DNA from: Novosphingobium pentaromativorans US6-1
Lineage (GTDB): Bacteria > Pseudomonadota > Alphaproteobacteria > Sphingomonadales > Sphingomonadaceae
Direction of reading: 5' to 3'
Length of the DNA: 64,000 nt
Assembly (NCBI RefSeq): GCF_000767465.1
Contig: NZ_CP009291.1
Coordinates: 2,267,501 to 2,331,500 of the forward strand
This document shows positions 16,574 to 24,347 of the stretch, in pieces. A model generated the notes under the pieces. It made no database searches, was not told the DNA's origin, and was given only the letters and a program-made list of their open reading frames with translations. A program made the translations under genes and the position numbers. Numbering within the stretch: the stretch's first letter is position 1; every line of letters begins with the position of its first letter.

Positions 16574-17923
16574 TCATGCTTCCGGCTTGTCGACCAGTTC
16601 GATTTCGTGGCGCCTCAGCTTCTGCAGCGTGCGCCAGGACATCAGGCCCATGGCGAGATAGGAGATCGCCCCGCCCAGCGCCACGGCCCATGCCGCGCCC
16701 GCAGGCCCGATGGGGATGAACAGGTAGAGCCCCACGGCCAGACCGGCGACGGCAAAGAGCCGTGCCACCAGCGAGAGGCGCGCCCGCCCGGTCGAATGGA
16801 GAACCGGTTCGAAGGCGACGCTGGCAAGATCGAAACTGGCCGCGATTGCCAGCGGCACGAGGATCGCCGCGCCCTGCTCGAAGTCGGGCCCGGCGATCAG
16901 CTCCAGCAACTGACGTCCGATCAGCAGAGCGATCACGACCACCACGAGGCCCGCAGCGCCCGCGATAAGGCTGGTCTGCAGCGCCAGCTTGCGGAATTCG
17001 GCAAATTCGGTCGAGACGCGGGCACGGGCGACTTCGGCATAGACCGAGCGCGTGAGCAGCGTCGAAAGCTTGCTCAGGGACTGCGATAGCTGCGAGGCAA
17101 GACGATAGAGACCGGCCGCGCGCGTGCCGACGAAGGCACCGACGGCAAGCAGCGGCCCGTTCTTCATGGTCGCCTCTATCGTCGCTCCGGCGTAAGTCAC
17201 CATGAAGAAATGCCCGACGCCCTCGTTCTCGGCGAAGGCCTGGCGCCACTTGGCAAGGTTCGAAAGGCGCACGGCCTGCGGACAGAGGCGGCGGGCCATG
17301 GCCCAGTACAGAATCGCCTCGAGGACATCGATAGCGGCCCAGGCGAAGAGGAATCTTCCCACGCTCGGCCCGGTGGCCCAGATCGTGAGCGCCGCAATCA
17401 GGCGCCCGGTCGGCACGACCGCCTCGACATAGACCGCCATGTCGAAACGGTGCAACGCGCGCACGATCCCGGTCGGCGCCGATACCAGCGCCCACAGCGA
17501 TCCGCAGGCAAAATAGAATGCGATGTCGATATAGGCGGGGTTGAGTTCGAGAACGCCGGAAAAGCCATAGATCAGGATCGCCGCCAGGCCGCAGCCGATG
17601 ACCGCACCCACCGCGTCCAGCATCCCGCACAGCATGCCCAGGCGGCCGAACTTGCCCCAGTCCTCGGCATGCACATGTTCGCTGCCGTAGCGCACGACGA
17701 CGCGCCAGGTCTGGAAGCCCGCAATCGCAATCAGCGCCTGCGCCGTTCCGAAGATCAGCGAGAAGTGGCCGAAGTCTTTCAGCCCCAGCGTTCGCGTCAG
17801 GATCGCAAGGTAAGCGAGGCCGCAGACGGCACCGAATCCCTTGCCGCCGAGCAGCCAGGCCGTGTTCTGAAGTATCCGCCGGAGGGGAGAAGCATTCTCG
17901 AGGCGGTCGCGTTTGGCGGACAT
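16574..17923 (-). CDS. Polysaccharide/lipid-linked oligosaccharide flippase (Wzx/MATE-like)
   Basis: Integral-membrane protein of about 449 residues with roughly twelve helices. It resembles the lipopolysaccharide and exopolysaccharide flippases that move undecaprenyl-linked units across the inner membrane. It begins NTAWLLGGKGFGAVCGLAYL, the typical first helix of that family. A GTG directly precedes the chosen ATG. It diverges from the nucleotidyltransferase gene at 18073 and borders a group of lipid-metabolism genes, so its cargo could be a glycolipid made nearby; that is inference. Confidence 0.85.
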   Translation of the reverse strand: MSAKRDRLENASPLRRILQNTAWLLGGKGFGAVCGLAYLAILTRTLGLKDFGHFSLIFGTAQALIAIAGFQTWRVVVRYGSEHVHAEDWGKFGRLGMLCGMLDAVGAVIGCGLAAILIYGFSGVLELNPAYIDIAFYFACGSLWALVSAPTGIVRALHRFDMAVYVEAVVPTGRLIAALTIWATGPSVGRFLFAWAAIDVLEAILYWAMARRLCPQAVRLSNLAKWRQAFAENEGVGHFFMVTYAGATIEATMKNGPLLAVGAFVGTRAAGLYRLASQLSQSLSKLSTLLTRSVYAEVARARVSTEFAEFRKLALQTSLIAGAAGLVVVVIALLIGRQLLELIAGPDFEQGAAILVPLAIAASFDLASVAFEPVLHSTGRARLSLVARLFAVAGLAVGLYLFIPIGPAGAAWAVALGGAISYLAMGLMSWRTLQKLRRHEIELVDKPEA

Positions 17924-17989
17924 CACGGGTGCATTTGGACGAGCACCGTTTCACTTGCAAGGTTTCACGAGATGCAAATAAGGCAAAGC

Positions 17990-18072: not shown

Positions 18073-18831
18073 ATGATCGAACACGCCATCCTCCTCAGCG
18101 CCGGCCAGGGCTCGCGCCTGCTTCCGCTCACGGCCGAGCGACCGAAGTGCCTGATCGACTTCTCCGGCAAGTCGCTGATCGAGTGGCAGATCGAAATGCT
18201 TGCCCGCGGCGGCGTGAAGCGGATCGACGTCGTCACCGGCTTCATGACCGACATGCTTGAAGAGCACCTCATGGCGATCCGCGATCCGCGCGTTGAAATC
18301 TCGATCCGCTTCAACCCGTTCTACAAAGTCGCGGACAACCTCGGTTCCTGCTGGATCGCGCGCGAGGCGATGCGCGGCGACTTCCTGATCCTCAACGGCG
18401 ACACGCTGATCTCAGAGGAGATCGTCCAGCGCGTGCAGCAGGGCGCGACGGACAGGGACGGCAAGACCTGGCCCGTGGCCGTGACCGTCGACGTCAAGCC
18501 GGAAGGCTATGACAGCGACGACATGAAAGTCGAACGCGAAGCCGACGGCCGCCTCGTCCATATCGGCAAGACGCTGACCGCCGAGCAATCCAATTCCGAA
18601 TCCATCGGCTTTCTCGCCTTCCGCGGCGAAGGCGCCGAACTGTTCCGCGAAACCGTGCGCCAGGCGATGCGCACCCCCGAAGGCGTGCAGCACTGGTACC
18701 TCAAGGTCATCGATTCGATTGCGCCCACCGGCAAGGTCGGCACGGTTTCGATCGAGGGCCTCGACTGGGCCGAGGTGGACTTCCTCAACGACATCGAGAT
18801 CGCGACCAAGCTGACCGACACCTGGGCCTGA
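18073..18831 (+). CDS. Sugar/polyol-phosphate nucleotidyltransferase (LicC-like)
   Basis: A 252-residue NTP-transferase-fold enzyme that should load a phosphorylated alcohol or sugar onto a nucleotide. The nucleotide-binding GQGSRLLPLTAERPKCL is at 11-27 and the metal-binding LILNGD at 105-110. Closest in style to phosphocholine/inositol-phosphate cytidylyltransferases (LicC, IPCT) rather than to glucose-1-phosphate enzymes. It faces genes for a CDP-alcohol phosphatidyltransferase and lipid kinase, which fits making a CDP-alcohol head group. The last codons and stop lie inside a short tandem repeat. Confidence 0.82.
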   Translation: MIEHAILLSAGQGSRLLPLTAERPKCLIDFSGKSLIEWQIEMLARGGVKRIDVVTGFMTDMLEEHLMAIRDPRVEISIRFNPFYKVADNLGSCWIAREAMRGDFLILNGDTLISEEIVQRVQQGATDRDGKTWPVAVTVDVKPEGYDSDDMKVEREADGRLVHIGKTLTAEQSNSESIGFLAFRGEGAELFRETVRQAMRTPEGVQHWYLKVIDSIAPTGKVGTVSIEGLDWAEVDFLNDIEIATKLTDTWA

Positions 18832-18892
18832 TCGACTGGGGCCTGATCGACTGGGGCCTGATCCATCGGAGGCCTGATCCATCGGGGGCCTG
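18825..18892. repeat. Short tandem repeat covering the stop codon of the 18073 gene
   Basis: Two identical 15-base units (GGCCTGATCGACTGG) are followed by two 16-base variants (GGCCTGATCCATCGG plus A or G) and the partial unit GGCCTG. The TGA stop of the nucleotidyltransferase gene is in the first unit. It looks like a local slippage expansion after the gene end. Confidence 0.85.
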
Positions 18893-18911
18893 CACTGAGG
18901 CGGGCCCCGTC

Positions 18912-18930
18912 CTCCGGAGCAAGTCCGGAG
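18912..18930. terminator. Hairpin between convergent genes
   Basis: CTCCGGA-GCAAG-TCCGGAG forms a perfect seven-pair stem between the nucleotidyltransferase and the HIT gene, which end toward each other. No T run follows on either strand, so termination strength is doubtful. Confidence 0.4.
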
Positions 18931-18931
18931 C

Positions 18932-19357
18932 CTAGAAGAAGCCCTTGAGCCAGCTTACCAGAGCGGCCAGATCCTCGCCTTCGAGCGCTACCGCGTGCCC
19001 GAGGTCGGGCACTTTCGGCCAGCCGCAGTCGACGAATTCACGGCCCTGCCATTCGCGCGATCCCTCGTAACGGGGGATCACGTGGAAATGGACGTTGGGA
19101 TCCACCATCATCAGCATCAGGTAGTTGAGCCTGGCATATCCCACCGCCTTGCCCAGCGCCGCCTCGATGGCGCTTGTCGCCTGCTTGAGCTCGGCGTGGG
19201 CCGCGGCCGGCAGTTCGCCAAAGGCGGTAACCTCGGACTTGGCGGCCAGCACCAGCGAACCGAGCGTCGGCTGCGCCGCACGGGCAAGGACGACCCAGTG
19301 GTCGAACTCGGCGACCAGCGTTGCCGGGTAGCCGAATTTCTCCATCGTCACGTTCAT
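18932..19357 (-). CDS. HIT-family nucleotide hydrolase/transferase
   Basis: A 141-residue histidine-triad protein. The active-site segment is NVHFHVIPRY (88-97), where the first histidine of the classic triad is replaced by asparagine, a common variant in proteobacterial HIT proteins; H90 would be the nucleophile and H92 the third position. Such enzymes hydrolyse dinucleoside polyphosphates or nucleotide-phosphate links. Start ATG is two bases past the stop of the CDP-alcohol phosphatidyltransferase gene, indicating translational coupling and perhaps a role in cleaning up nucleotide-activated intermediates. Confidence 0.85.
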   Translation of the reverse strand: MNVTMEKFGYPATLVAEFDHWVVLARAAQPTLGSLVLAAKSEVTAFGELPAAAHAELKQATSAIEAALGKAVGYARLNYLMLMMVDPNVHFHVIPRYEGSREWQGREFVDCGWPKVPDLGHAVALEGEDLAALVSWLKGFF

Positions 19358-19359
19358 CG

Positions 19360-20496
19360 TCAGTCCTCCGAAAGCCACGAAGTGATCGTACCGCCCCTGG
19401 CCCGCACATTCCATGCCTGCACGAGGCGGATCGCATGGACCAGGCAGGATAGCGCCGTCCACCAAGCCACCGCGATCAGGCCGATGTCGGGCCGCGCAAA
19501 GAGCATGGCGACGAAGAGGATCACCATGTTGGGATTGCGGCGCGCAGTGATCAGGCGGAACCGGCTGTCGAAGCGGCGCCACACGTGGATGTGCATCATG
19601 CCGTTCTGGCGCATGAACACGCCTTCGATCAGACGCTGGACGACATAACCGCCCTGGATGGCGCCCTGCACCCACCAGAAGGTCGCCGTGTCGTAGGCCA
19701 GGCCCCAGCTGGCAAGGCCGGTGGCCCAGAACCACCACCAGAACGGCGGATGAACGAGGTCCATGCCGTGATCGAAGATATTGCCCCAGTAGGAAGAGGT
19801 GATCGTGCACCGGGCGAGCTTGCCGTCCACGGTATCCAGCACCATGAACACCAGACCGGCCGCCATGCCCGACCAGTAATGGCCCTGTGCGAACAGGACC
19901 GTCGCGACCACGCAGAACACCGCGCCGACGAAAGTCACCATGTTCGGGGTGATATGCAGCCTGGCGCAGATGCGGGTCAGCACCAGGGCCCATTCCGGCC
20001 AGAGGTACTTGGTGAGCAGGTCGGTCACGCCCTTGTAGGCGCCGAAATAGCTGGCACGCTCGAGCTGGCGGACGGTATCCTTGCGCAGCGGGAGCAGGAA
20101 AGGCGTTTCGCGCTTGCGAAGCTGCTTGTTCTCGATGGTCGGCCCGGTCTCGAAAGCGACCACCGTCATCCCTGCGGTGTCGGCCAGCGGCACTCCCGCC
20201 GCCATGGCCTCGGCGATTCGGCGCGTCTGGTTCGCATCTGCAGCATGCGCGAGCGCCGGAACGCCCCCGAGGGTAAGCACCATGCCCGGCTGGGTGACGA
20301 TGTGCCGGAACCATGCCGGGTCCCAGGCGAAGGCGGCCGCGGACAGGATCGCCGCCTCTTCGGGCACCGTGTCGGCAGGTGTGAGCCTGGAAGCCCGCGC
20401 AATCCGGGCCACGCGTTCGGAGACATCCAGTCCCCACAGCTTTACGGGGTTTTCGCCGATCGTGACGACCGGCAGCACTTGCGAATTTTCGACCAT
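19360..20496 (-). CDS. CDP-alcohol phosphatidyltransferase with an N-terminal extra domain
   Basis: Membrane enzyme that joins a CDP-activated group to an alcohol or lipid. From the ATG of MVENSQ it has 378 residues. The C-terminal half (about 175-378) has several helices and the full family signature: D221, D224-G225, A228-R229, G238, D242, D246. The first 160 residues are soluble and recall, in order and in ENPVKLWGL, the nucleotidyltransferase half of bifunctional inositol-phosphate cytidylyltransferase/phospholipid synthases, but the glycine-rich nucleotide loop is not visible. Longer starts (20559, 20646) exist; the chosen one follows the proposed control region. It precedes the HIT gene and diverges from the lipid kinase operon. 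Confidence 0.85.
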   Translation of the reverse strand: MVENSQVLPVVTIGENPVKLWGLDVSERVARIARASRLTPADTVPEEAAILSAAAFAWDPAWFRHIVTQPGMVLTLGGVPALAHAADANQTRRIAEAMAAGVPLADTAGMTVVAFETGPTIENKQLRKRETPFLLPLRKDTVRQLERASYFGAYKGVTDLLTKYLWPEWALVLTRICARLHITPNMVTFVGAVFCVVATVLFAQGHYWSGMAAGLVFMVLDTVDGKLARCTITSSYWGNIFDHGMDLVHPPFWWWFWATGLASWGLAYDTATFWWVQGAIQGGYVVQRLIEGVFMRQNGMMHIHVWRRFDSRFRLITARRNPNMVILFVAMLFARPDIGLIAVAWWTALSCLVHAIRLVQAWNVRARGGTITSWLSED

Positions 20497-20659
20497 GGGG
20501 TCCCGAACTAGTCGAGGCCGCCGGGGCTGGCAATCGCCGTCGTCGCCAGCCGAGCGCATGCTCACGCGACGGTGCACCTTCGCCACAGAAGTGTAACTTT
20601 CCTGTGTCAAACCATGTTTCATAGTGATTTTCGGCTCGGGCGGCATTACATAGACGCCC

Positions 20660-21703
20660 GTGTACGGATCGATTTACGAGTTTGAATCGCTGCCGAGCTT
20701 CGGCAAGCAGGGAAGTGAGAGTCATTCTCGCTCCACTTCGCGCGTCCGCCGTGGACGTGCCGTCCCGCTGGTCGGGATCGTCCGGAATCCGCGCAGCCAC
20801 CGCAACAAGGGCATCGCGCCGGAAATGGCAGATTGCTCCAACATCCTGACCGAGACGCCCCGCACCCGCGAGGATCTCCACCATACGCTCGCGGAATTTG
20901 CGCGGCGCGGCATAGACTACCTCGTGGTCGATGGCGGCGACGGTACCGTGCGTGACGTGCTGACCTGCGGCGCCGACATTTTCGGCAACGACTGGCCTAC
21001 GCTGATGGTCCTGCCGAAAGGCAAGACCAACGCGCTGACCGTCGATCTCGGCCTGCCCAATCACTGGTCGCTGGCCGAAGCGCTTGCTGCAGCGCAGAAC
21101 GGCAATACCGTGACCCGCCGGCCCCTGCGCGTCTCCCCGGCGGATGGCTCGGGCGGCTGCATCCAGGGCTTCATCTTCGGCACCGGCACTTTCTCGCTGG
21201 CGACCGAGGCAGGCCAGGAAGCGCATCGCCGCGGCGCCTTCAACAGCTTCGCCGTGGGCCTCTCGATCCTCTGGGCCGTCATCCAGGCGCTGTTCGGCGG
21301 CGCCGGCAACCCGTGGCGCGCATGCACCCCGACCCGCCTCGTCGACCGCTTCACCGGCCGCGCCCTGCCGCGCACAGGCCCGGGCAGGGACGACGAGCGG
21401 CTCATGACCTTTGCCACGACTTTCGAGAAGTTTCCTCTCGGCGCGCGGCCCTTCGGCAGCAATGTGCCTCCCGGGATGAAGCTGGCCGTGGTCGACTGGC
21501 CGGTACGCTGGGTGATCATGCTGGTCCCGGCCATGCTCTTCGGCTTCTACGGACGTTTCCTCAAGCGCGCGGGCGTACATCGTTTCTGCGCCAGCGACGT
21601 CGACATCGACCTCGGCGGAACGTTCATCCTCGACGGCGAGGCCTTCCCGGCCGGCCGCTATATCCTCGACGAAGGCCCGCAGCTTACCTTCGTCGTCCCG
21701 TGA
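20660..21703 (+). CDS. Diacylglycerol-kinase-family lipid kinase
   Basis: A 347-residue soluble or peripheral kinase that should phosphorylate a lipid hydroxyl. The family's nucleotide motif is DGGDGTVRDVL (91-101), preceded by a VRNPRSHRNKG segment (41-51) matching the usual N-P-x-S-G region. Start is GTG. It heads a three-gene plus-strand operon (stop to next start 11 bp) with the TAM41-like and MobA-like genes. Substrate could be diacylglycerol, ceramide or another lipid alcohol; sphingomonads make sphingolipids, so ceramide kinase activity is worth considering but not shown. Confidence 0.85.
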   Translation: MYGSIYEFESLPSFGKQGSESHSRSTSRVRRGRAVPLVGIVRNPRSHRNKGIAPEMADCSNILTETPRTREDLHHTLAEFARRGIDYLVVDGGDGTVRDVLTCGADIFGNDWPTLMVLPKGKTNALTVDLGLPNHWSLAEALAAAQNGNTVTRRPLRVSPADGSGGCIQGFIFGTGTFSLATEAGQEAHRRGAFNSFAVGLSILWAVIQALFGGAGNPWRACTPTRLVDRFTGRALPRTGPGRDDERLMTFATTFEKFPLGARPFGSNVPPGMKLAVVDWPVRWVIMLVPAMLFGFYGRFLKRAGVHRFCASDVDIDLGGTFILDGEAFPAGRYILDEGPQLTFVVP

Positions 21704-21714
21704 GCCGCTGAGCA

Positions 21715-22629
21715 ATGAGCGAGGATCTCGCTGGACGCGTGACGGCCGCTCTCAACCGGCCCGTCGAACCCGAAGTACGCGCCTTCGCCGAACGCCTTGG
21801 AAAAGAGGCCGGCGCACTGGCCGTCCTGTTCTACGGCTCCAACCTCAGGACCGGCTCGCTGGAAGGCGTGCTCGATTTCTACGTCCTGACGGCGGGGCCG
21901 CAGGTGGAGAAGATCTGGCCGCGCGTCAGCTATCACGAATGGGGCCATACCGGCGTCACGCTGCGCGCCAAGGTCGCGACGATGGCGCTCGAGACGTTTC
22001 GCGCCGCGGCTTCGGGCGAATTGCTCGATACGACGATCTGGGCCCGCTTCGTCCAGCCCAGCGCCCTGGCATGGCAACGCGATGAAGCGGCCGGCGCGGC
22101 CATGGCCGAGTCCATCGCCCTGGCGGCACGGACCGCCGCCCGGCTGGCGGTTGCCCTGGGTCCAGAGACCGGCACTCCCGAAGACTATTGGCGCGCCCTG
22201 TTCCGTGCGACTTATGCCGCCGAATTCCGGGTCGAAAAAGCCGGTCGCGAGGATTCCATCCTCTCTGCCAACCGCACCCATTTCGATGGCCTCCTGCCGC
22301 TGGCACTCGTGGCCGAACGGATCGACTTCGCCCGAGCTGCCGACAGCGTCATCCGCCCGGAACTGAGCGCCGCCCGCCGGGCCCGCCTGCTCGGCTGGTG
22401 GAAGAAACGGCAACGCATGGGCAAGCCCTACAACTTCATGCGCCTGCTCAAGGCCTCGACCACTTTCGACGGCGCAGCGCGCTATGCCGCCTGGAAGATC
22501 GAGCGGCACACCGGCATTCATGTCGCCCTTACGCCCTGGCGCGAGCGTCATCCGGTGCTTGCCGCACCCGGCGTGCTCTGGCAGGTTTGGCGTGCGAAAA
22601 AAGCCGCCAACGCCAAAGAAGCCGCGTGA
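21715..22629 (+). CDS. TAM41-like nucleotidyltransferase (possible CDP-lipid synthase)
   Basis: A 304-residue protein without clear membrane segments. FYGSNLRTGSLEGVLDFYVL (39-58) has the G-S then D-x-x spacing of the nucleotidyltransferase site in the mitochondrial TAM41 family, which makes CDP-diacylglycerol from phosphatidic acid. A following region (VTLRAKVATMALETF, then LLDTTIWARFVQPS) parallels the order of TAM41 features I remember. Located between a lipid kinase and a MobA-like gene with tight spacing. The assignment is by motif memory and context, and could be wrong; a plain hypothetical is the fallback. Confidence 0.6.
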   Translation: MSEDLAGRVTAALNRPVEPEVRAFAERLGKEAGALAVLFYGSNLRTGSLEGVLDFYVLTAGPQVEKIWPRVSYHEWGHTGVTLRAKVATMALETFRAAASGELLDTTIWARFVQPSALAWQRDEAAGAAMAESIALAARTAARLAVALGPETGTPEDYWRALFRATYAAEFRVEKAGREDSILSANRTHFDGLLPLALVAERIDFARAADSVIRPELSAARRARLLGWWKKRQRMGKPYNFMRLLKASTTFDGAARYAAWKIERHTGIHVALTPWRERHPVLAAPGVLWQVWRAKKAANAKEAA

Positions 22630-23405
22630 GCATAACCCAAGCCCCTGTATCAGCCCTCATTCTTGCCGGATCGCGCCCCGGAGTGCCCGACCCGGTAGCC
22701 GGCGCCGAAGGCGTCAGCCACAAGGCCCTTGTCGAGATCGACGGCAGGCCGATGCTCGCCCATGTCGTCTCCGCGCTGCGGGATGCAGGCATCGCGCGCC
22801 TGGCCGTGGCGACGAACGATGCTCAGGTAATCGCCCTGGCGTCCGAGCTGGGCTGTGAGGCCGTCCCAGCCGCCGCCGGACCGAGCGCCAGCGTCGAAGC
22901 CGGTTTCGCGCAGCTGGGCGCACCGATGCTGGTCACGACTTCAGACCATGCGCTGCTGCGTGCGGAATGGGTTTCCGATTTTCTCGCCGATACGCCCGGC
23001 AATGCCGACGTCGCCATCCTGCTGGCCCGGCGCGAGGCGATCGAGCGCGCCATGCCCGGGAGCAAGCGCACCTACTTGCGCTTCGCCGATGGCTGGTGGT
23101 CGGGCTGCAACCTGTTCCTGCTCGCCCGAGACAATGCCAATGCCGCGATCCGGACCTGGAAAATGGTCGAGGCAGATCGCAAGCGTCCCTGGCGGATCGC
23201 CGCGAAACTGGGGATCGGCATGCTGGTGAACTATGCGCTGGGGCGCCTGACGCTGGCGGCGGCCATTGCCCGAATGGGCCGCCGGGTCGGCATCGAGGCC
23301 CGGCTAGTCGCCGCGCGCGACGGCCTGGCCGCGGTCGACGTCGACAAGCCTGCAGACCTCGCCGATGCCCGGGAAATCATGGCATCGCGAAAGATGGCGC
23401 AGTAA
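22626..23405 (+). CDS. MobA-like NTP transferase
   Basis: A 259-residue protein of the NTP-transferase fold starting at a GTG that overlaps the previous stop (GTGA). The N-terminal VSALILAGSRPG, HKALVEIDGRPML (32-44) and TSDHALL are the signature loop, lysine and metal-binding segments of MobA/IspD-like nucleotidyltransferases; the glycine-rich loop is unusually stretched. The C-terminal 70 residues hold a hydrophobic helix pair (LGIGMLVNYALG, LAAAIARMGRR) that might touch the membrane. Third gene of the lipid kinase operon; probably activates a head group with a nucleotide rather than making molybdenum cofactor. Confidence 0.75.
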   Translation: MSITQAPVSALILAGSRPGVPDPVAGAEGVSHKALVEIDGRPMLAHVVSALRDAGIARLAVATNDAQVIALASELGCEAVPAAAGPSASVEAGFAQLGAPMLVTTSDHALLRAEWVSDFLADTPGNADVAILLARREAIERAMPGSKRTYLRFADGWWSGCNLFLLARDNANAAIRTWKMVEADRKRPWRIAAKLGIGMLVNYALGRLTLAAAIARMGRRVGIEARLVAARDGLAAVDVDKPADLADAREIMASRKMAQ

Positions 23406-23480: not shown

Positions 23481-23972
23481 TCACATGTACTTCATCTCGA
23501 TCCGGATCGACTTCACGGTGTCGCCGACGGGAACGCCGACCTTGGTGTAGCTCGGCTTGCCGAGGTTGAAGATGTTGATCGACGGGTTGTTCGACATGCC
23601 GCCGCCGTCGCTCATGATGTCTGTCTTGCCGTTGCCGTTGAGGTCGTGGCGCACGGCAACGCCGTACGTGCCCGATTCAGGCACGGGCAGGCAGAAGGTC
23701 ATCGTGCCCGCCTTGGCCGGAACCTCGATGCGCGAAAGCCACTTGCCCTTTGTCAGCCACTCCGACGAATTGGCCCGGTAGCTCTGGATGCGCAGCTTGC
23801 CCTGCGACGCCTTGACGCCATCGACGGTCACCATGACCGCCGGTCCGGAACCCGCAGTACAACGGCTCATATCGTTGTGAATCTCGTTGCGGTACTGCGC
23901 GATGGCCGGCGAAGCCGTCGCCAGGCCGATCGCGGCGAGAGCGCCGAATCCCGCAGTCAGTCGTTTCTTCAT
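23481..23972 (-). CDS. DUF2141-domain exported protein
   Basis: A 163-residue protein with a clear signal peptide (MKKRLTAGFGALAAIGLATA, cleavage probably after SPAIA near residue 24). The mature part carries the DUF2141 hallmark: a DLNGNGKTD calcium-loop-like stretch followed by GGGMSNNPS. The function of the family is unknown; it is thought to be periplasmic or surface located. I chose the ATG that begins the signal peptide; another ATG lies 33 bases upstream. It diverges from rpe. Confidence 0.82.
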   Translation of the reverse strand: MKKRLTAGFGALAAIGLATASPAIAQYRNEIHNDMSRCTAGSGPAVMVTVDGVKASQGKLRIQSYRANSSEWLTKGKWLSRIEVPAKAGTMTFCLPVPESGTYGVAVRHDLNGNGKTDIMSDGGGMSNNPSINIFNLGKPSYTKVGVPVGDTVKSIRIEMKYM

Positions 23973-24347
23973 TCCGATCGATCCCTTCGGGAAGGTCGTG
24001 TTCATTTCCGCTTCCATGTAATGGACTGATTTCGCTCCATTCGCGGCGGTATTGCCGCAAGAGCAAGGCGATGTCATCTCCACCTTTTCTTGGGGCCAAT
24101 CTGGCCTGTCCGCCGTGAATGCGAACTGAATTGTCGCGCAAGCCTCCAGACAGGCGGCAGTTTCGCGCAAGGACGCATCGCGAAGAAAAATCCGACCCGG
24201 CCCGCGAAGTTCCCATTTCGCATCGCGGCAACTGTCCCTATTCGGGCCTTGACCCAATATCGCGTGTGGAAAACGGGCTTCCTCGTCCTTGTCCGCACAA
24301 TATCTGGTGCTTTATTCATCGTTATCCAAGGAGCCTCGATTTCCCTC
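23973..24347. other. Intergenic region between the DUF2141 gene and rpe
   Basis: About 375 bp between divergent genes. It contains an AAGGAG at 24328-24333, some 14 bases before the rpe ATG, and TTG-rich stretches around 24249 and 24289, but no convincing -35/-10 pair. I see no conserved-looking small gene. Confidence 0.5.

Follow-up and report, generated by a model that had tools for sequence, protein, structure and literature searches.

Sphingomonads are known for the sphingolipids of their outer membrane, and in Caulobacter ceramide diphosphoglycerate (CPG2) partly compensates for missing lipopolysaccharide. The question raised by a compact group of six genes in Novosphingobium pentaromativorans US6-1 is which lipid head group these genes serve. 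The cluster lies at positions 18073-23405 of the 64,000-nucleotide (nt) stretch analyzed here, referred to as the window (contig C1:2267501-2331500 of the 5.46-Mb source genome). Our analysis indicates that the cluster is very probably the head-group module of the CPG2 pathway, which provides an acidic phosphoglycerate head group on a sphingolipid. The original prediction, made from the DNA letters, had called the cluster undescribed; this label was dropped, as counterparts acting in the formation of ceramide phosphoglycerate (CPG) and CPG2 in Caulobacter are already published (PMC11324152, PMC12275187, PMC13228409 and PMC10331486). The pathway is a known one, probably with one overlooked component, a gene encoding a protein of the HIT (histidine triad) family.

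Open reading frames for all six genes were present at or near the expected places, and together with Pfam they confirmed the predicted layout of two divergent tight groups plus one convergent gene, with a flippase gene adjacent. The Pfam bit scores of the window proteins all exceeded the curated cut-offs. The minus strand carries cpgA (19360-20496; CDP-OH_P_transf, 37.4 bits), which encodes a CDP-alcohol phosphotransferase whose N-terminal domain is nucleotidyltransferase-like, followed after a gap of 2 nt by the HIT gene (18932-19357; PF01230, 22.5 bits, cut-off 21.5), the product of which is probably a nucleotidyl hydrolase or transferase. Divergent from cpgA, the plus strand carries cpgB (20660-21703; PF00781 DAGK_cat, 42.3 bits), encoding a DAGK-family lipid kinase, then after 11 nt cpgC (21715-22629), encoding a protein recognized as Tam41-like by its predicted structure, and with a 4-nt overlap a gene for a CC_1153-like (CofC/MobA-like) nucleotidyltransferase (22626-23405; PF12804 NTP_transf_3, 58.6 bits). 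An alternative GTG start for cpgB is possible at 20762, from which DAGK_cat scored 42.6 bits. The sixth gene, cpgD (18073-18831, plus strand; PF00483 NTP_transferase, 58.1 bits), is convergent with the HIT gene and encodes a predicted type I CTP:phosphoglycerate cytidylyltransferase.

Five of the six proteins fall in the enzyme classes of CPG/CPG2 synthesis (CpgD, CpgA, CpgB, CpgC and CC_1153). In Caulobacter, a role in CPG and CPG2 formation has been demonstrated genetically for CC_1152, CC_1153 and CC_1159-CC_1161 (PMC11324152). CC_1160 (CpgB) is a ceramide kinase by assay (PMC10331486), CC_1161 (CpgC, which has a CDP-diacylglycerol-synthase domain) is required for CPG, and CC_1159 (CpgA, a CDP-alcohol transferase), CC_1152 (CpgD) and CC_1153 (CofC-like) are required for CPG2, to which the CC_1158 phosphoesterase makes a partial, non-essential contribution (PMC11324152). 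CpgD produced CDP-glycerate when assayed (PMC12275187) and has a solved structure (PMC13228409). Orthologues have also been reported in Sphingomonas wittichii (PMC11324152). The source genome encodes a serine palmitoyltransferase (spt) near C1:2153713 (NF047603, 799.7 bits, cut-off 670), and this gene, the Tam41 fold of CpgC and the conserved neighbourhood described below upheld the earlier proposal of a dedicated phosphosphingolipid head-group pathway. Its proposed separation from the housekeeping route was upheld as far as pgsA and pssA are concerned: elsewhere the genome carries pgsA (above cut-off) and a gene resembling pssA (99.6 bits, below the cut-off of 107), on which ground housekeeping phospholipid synthesis was rejected as the role of the cluster. 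Judged from these genes, the organism would be expected to produce CPG2.

The individual enzymes were compared with their published counterparts. Eleven of 13 published active-site positions of C. crescentus CpgD were identical in the window protein, the residues being located through motifs and their spacing in the published numbering and not through alignment to the C. crescentus sequence. The identical positions (C. crescentus = window) were Gly12=G11, Arg16=R15, Lys26=K25, Asn90=N89, Asn110=N108, Gly111=G109, Asp112=D110, Met147=M151, Lys161=K166, Ser170=S177 and Trp201=W208; Thr93 was replaced by S92 and Thr88, a backbone contact, by A87. In the structures of the C. crescentus enzyme, Asn90, Asn110, Met147, Lys161, Ser170 and Trp201 make contact with glycerate or with water bound to the metal (PMC13228409). 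We propose that the window CpgD is a CTP:phosphoglycerate cytidylyltransferase that makes CDP-glycerate. The assignment of CpgA as a CDP-alcohol phosphotransferase agreed by domain, motif and fold; the protein is similar to AF2299 and IPCT-DIPPS across its full length, its N-terminal domain lacks the GxGxR...PK signature that CpgD carries, and it is proposed to attach the second phosphoglycerate. CpgB has a DAGK_cat domain, and its homologues adjoin cpgC and cpgA with spt close by in four other loci (L261-L264); it is probably a ceramide kinase, though its sequence does not discriminate between ceramide and diacylglycerol as substrate.

CpgC gave no Pfam match at E 0.01 and none in NCBIfam, and its sequence profile matched no solved structure. 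As the original prediction had suggested, its predicted structure best matched Tam41 (11-14% identity to the Tam41 structures 6ig4 and 7ecd), and we propose a Tam41-fold enzyme acting on ceramide-1-phosphate. The CofC-like protein had 2dpw as its nearest solved sequence (E 1.4e-24), and its homologues occur in the same islands as the other cpg genes. F420 or molybdenum cofactor synthesis, which would have placed this MobA-like gene in an unrelated cofactor pathway, was rejected because its scores fell far under the cut-offs (32.3 bits on the CofC model TIGR03552, cut-off 105).

Conservation of the neighbourhood was assessed in named loci, the best 80 of at least 561 CpgA matches and a set biased towards relatives of the window. 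All of cofC, cpgC, cpgB, cpgA, HIT and cpgD lay together in 17 of these 80 loci, which exceeds what chance would produce. The same gene families recur in spt-bearing islands of other genomes, for example in the order aasR-cerR-spt / cpgC-cpgB-cpgA / phosphoesterase-HIT-lptF-lptG-hydroxylase-cerS-cofC / cpgD in L263, where names were assigned by published order and Pfam. Among 385 alphaproteobacterial genomes CpgC was found in 42, comprising all 24 with CpgA plus 18 without it. Some points weigh against the CPG2 assignment. cpgB and cpgC were within 10 kb of cpgA in just 32 of the 80 named loci. Orthology to the Caulobacter genes was judged by domain content, the spacing of residues, gene order and published descriptions. 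Finally, no match to a CC_1158-like phosphoesterase was found at E 1e-20 in the source genome, with 5 and 19 of 37 candidates scored. PMC11324152 reports that H. neptunium and S. wittichii also lack CC_1158, and we therefore take this gene as not pathway-defining.

The distribution of the HIT gene points to a likely role in the CPG2 pathway. CpgA was called at E <1e-50 and HIT at E <1e-30 in 118 Sphingomonadales genomes, cut-offs that were chosen after the scores had been seen; CpgA matched 57 of the 118 at E 0.001 and 16 below 1e-50, the next best genome scoring 1.3e-17. HIT was present in 15 of the 16 CpgA-positive genomes and in 0 of the 102 CpgA-negative genomes, a count that sets aside weak matches in G049 (E 2.9e-4) and G082 (E 1.7e-5). 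Across the 385 Alphaproteobacteria, HIT was present in 18/24 CpgA-positive and 10/361 CpgA-negative genomes, setting aside one weak match (G493, E 1.6e-10). None of the 18 alphaproteobacterial genomes with CpgC but without CpgA had HIT, and therefore HIT follows the CPG2 arm. The Fisher values (4.4e-18, 4.2e-19, 5.0e-7 and 2.5e-13) ignore shared ancestry, and the genome samples were drawn evenly and are not independent; the class searches scored five candidates per genome for CpgA, CpgC and the phosphoesterase and ten for HIT, with misses possible. Four class genomes sharing one genus code (G153, G280, G377 and G453) were rejected as Caulobacter, the named relatives of the G377 CpgA being Dongia, and G385 was rejected as a Caulobacter relative, being close to Niveispirillum.

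Gene order gave a similar picture. In 62 of the 64 HIT-bearing named loci, the HIT gene shared its strand with cpgA and lay downstream of it. Eleven neighbourhoods were examined from the 17 other genomes with both CpgA and HIT; HIT directly preceded an LptF homologue in ten of them (Pfam was run on one pair), and in the remaining one (G240) it was divergent from cpgA. HIT and cpgA lie apart in four genomes (G103, G112, G010 and G017) and still co-occur, and linkage alone therefore cannot explain the association.

HIT was also coupled to the type of CpgD. Type I proteins have the equivalents of Asn90 and Trp201; type II proteins have Ser at the Asn90 position and no Trp201. Of the 80 named loci, 65 had cpgD as well as cpgA within reach, 53 of them type I and 12 type II; the remaining 15, which had no CpgD within reach (11 with HIT, 4 without), do not enter this count. 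HIT was present in 53/53 type I loci and in 0/12 type II loci, absence here meaning absence from the locus; the genome-wide check was made for G056, a type II genome in one contig, and revealed no HIT anywhere. On the CpgA tree the CpgD type switches about four to five times, an approximate figure given the long branches and the two CpgA copies in L063. Because HIT tracks CpgD type across loci, we regard it as coupled in sphingomonads to the CpgD that makes CDP-glycerate. The existence of two types suggests that the head group attached differs among sphingomonads. A fuller reading, to which we give slightly better than even credence, is that HIT is an unrecognised CPG2 enzyme coupled to type I CpgD and lost on a swap to type II, that this exchangeable module sets the head group, and that Caulobacter CC_1157 is the same gene.

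The role of the HIT gene in the pathway seems to be unrecognised in the literature. Among the papers listed by full-text searches, which covered main texts and few subscription papers, none paired a HIT protein with this pathway, and the terms 'HIT family' and 'histidine triad' are not used in the main text of PMC11324152. By its position the HIT protein may correspond to CC_1157: in other islands HIT lies between the phosphoesterase and lptF genes, in agreement with the CC_1157 locus number between the phosphoesterase and lptF2. CC_1157 has been published as probably unrelated to the pathway, and PMC11324152 reports it missing in Zymomonas together with CpgA.

We considered whether the cluster might encode the CPG2 pathway while the HIT gene stands outside it, encoding a hydrolase for general nucleotide clean-up that sits in the operon by chance. 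Several observations lean this way and weigh against a HIT enzyme of the pathway. Six of the 24 CpgA-positive alphaproteobacteria lack HIT; all six have a type-I-like CpgD and a CC_1158-like phosphoesterase, and four are Dongia-like. In a HIT tree of 52 rows, which included 9 of the 10 CpgA-negative genomes with a strong HIT match, five of the nine HIT proteins from such genomes fell inside the pathway-linked clade, the other four forming a separate clade. Searches of the genomes of these five, some of whose assemblies are 86-90% complete, detected neither CpgA nor CpgC nor a comparable CpgD; the best CpgD match there was E 3e-32, against 1e-51 or better in 39/39 CpgA-positive genomes. The window HIT protein has Asn in place of the first triad His and keeps the other two, so that the full triad is not present; at this position 132 loci, to which one genome contributes several copies, gave His in 83, Asn in 14, Asp in 12, Gln in 5, Tyr in 1 and Leu in 1, with 16 not read by the pattern. 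CC_1157, if it is the HIT gene, was reported without high cofitness, which speaks against an important role. The chance explanation must, however, account for a co-occurrence that persists in the four genomes where HIT and cpgA are apart, for HIT tracking CpgA and not CpgC, and for named loci that gain or lose HIT with CpgD type over the four to five changes on the CpgA tree. We consider it unlikely.

HIT could alternatively be a functional stand-in for the CC_1158 metallophosphoesterase. The 24 CpgA-positive alphaproteobacteria comprised 8 with HIT only, 6 with the phosphoesterase only, 10 with both and none with neither, and the 16 CpgA-positive Sphingomonadales comprised 12 with HIT only, 3 with both and 1 with neither, counts that speak for this reading. 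Simple replacement is weakened by the ten genomes with both genes, which adjoin one another in L263, L264 and L265, and by G056, which has neither; the absence of a neither class among the 24 has a chance of about 0.06 (calculated by hand from the counts), and at E <1e-50 the phosphoesterase is also present in 16 genomes without CpgA. This makes a stand-in improbable. Slightly more doubtful still is a different head group, inositol or another phospho-alcohol, on ceramide or diacylglycerol. In its favour, cytidylyltransferases of the CpgD kind differ in the substrates they use, the archaeal IPCT-DIPPS enzyme has two halves to which CpgD and CpgA are similar, and the second CpgD type suggests that specificity varies within such loci. 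The window CpgD, however, keeps the six positions that contact glycerate or metal-bound water, and on the DIPPS model NF041135, which has a cut-off of 580 bits, CpgD scored 47.5 and CpgA 24.9; archaeal-type inositol phosphate synthesis was rejected on these scores.

With CPG2 as the preferred product and HIT as a likely pathway member, the following scheme is proposed. CpgB would phosphorylate ceramide, and CpgC would use CTP to convert ceramide-1-phosphate to CDP-ceramide, from which CPG would be formed by a separate condensation with no enzyme assigned. CpgD would convert CTP and 2-phosphoglycerate to CDP-glycerate, and CpgA would transfer phosphoglycerate from CDP-glycerate onto CPG, with CPG2 and CMP as products. 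Both the CofC-like enzyme and the flippase would work in the same pathway. Since HIT enzymes act via nucleotidyl-histidine intermediates, the HIT protein would probably remove or transfer a nucleotidyl group at the CDP-glycerate node of the CPG2 arm, acting on surplus CDP-glycerate or on a nucleotide-capped intermediate; our confidence in this step is much less than in membership itself. What CpgB and CpgD do, and which genes are required, was established by others in Caulobacter (PMC10331486, PMC12275187, PMC11324152); we infer the CpgC and CpgA reactions and every HIT step. The compact Novosphingobium cluster offers a second genetic system in which the CpgA, CpgC and CC_1153 steps of the pathway could be defined, with the HIT gene as a concrete candidate for nucleotide handling.

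Other features were observed around the cluster. The adjacent gene (16574-17926, minus strand; PF01943, 50.8 bits) encodes a polysaccharide-type flippase, a candidate lipid flippase of the pathway (compare CC_1166), whose homologues adjoin aasR in L254 and L255 and are close to it in L265. On the other side the cluster is adjoined by a DUF2141 protein gene (23481-24257), and DUF2141-like proteins recur in three further islands of alphaproteobacteria (L180, L194 and L255), where they neighbour phosphoesterase, HIT or lptF genes. About four imperfect 15-nt direct repeats were seen by eye at 18825-18890, over the end of cpgD and between the convergent cpgD and HIT genes; a promoter scan found no site. 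The window CpgA is 99% identical to that of Novosphingobium sp. PP1Y. A gene of about 375 codons occurs near cpgA in 37/80 named loci (e.g. L070, L076, L080, L083, L094, L109 and L122). Its product is weakly TagF/TarL-like: among the proteins run only those of L109 and L083 passed PF04464 (23.9 and 23.7 bits, cut-off 22.1), and an 11-row profile matched TarL 8va1 at E 0.0012. This TagF-like protein might elongate the head group to a polymeric form; type II specificity was rejected, the 37 loci including type I loci as well as 11/12 of type II. A second CpgA-related CDP-alcohol transferase lies beside the fatty-acid hydroxylase gene of the island in L175, L177, L179, L181 and L191 (Dongia-like genomes, G278 and G301) and is a candidate CPG-forming enzyme in those lineages. 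A fourth CDP-alcohol transferase of the source genome lies on the second contig (C2:237808-238230).

Among known systems, C. crescentus CPG2 synthesis is matched in its five enzyme classes, including the CDP-diacylglycerol-synthase-like CpgC and the CDP-alcohol transferase CpgA, in the CpgD active-site positions, in the presence of spt in the genome and in a nearby flippase. The window differs from Caulobacter in that over 100 kb separate its head-group genes from spt, that a CC_1158-like phosphoesterase was not detected in its genome, and that its cpgA operon includes a HIT gene, of which CC_1157 may be the Caulobacter counterpart. S. wittichii is likewise a sphingomonad with these genes and without CC_1158 (PMC11324152); its orthologues are spread over six regions, whereas the window holds six genes in one 5.3-kb cluster. 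The window CpgA matches both the Archaeoglobus AF2299 and the IPCT-DIPPS proteins (4o6n, 4mnd) along its own length, and the window CpgD is IPCT-like; unlike in those systems, the window cytidylyltransferase is a separate protein and the acceptor would be a sphingolipid. Compared with the Tam41 CDP-diacylglycerol synthases (6ig4, 7ecd), the window CpgC has no sequence-level match and a proposed substrate of ceramide-1-phosphate.

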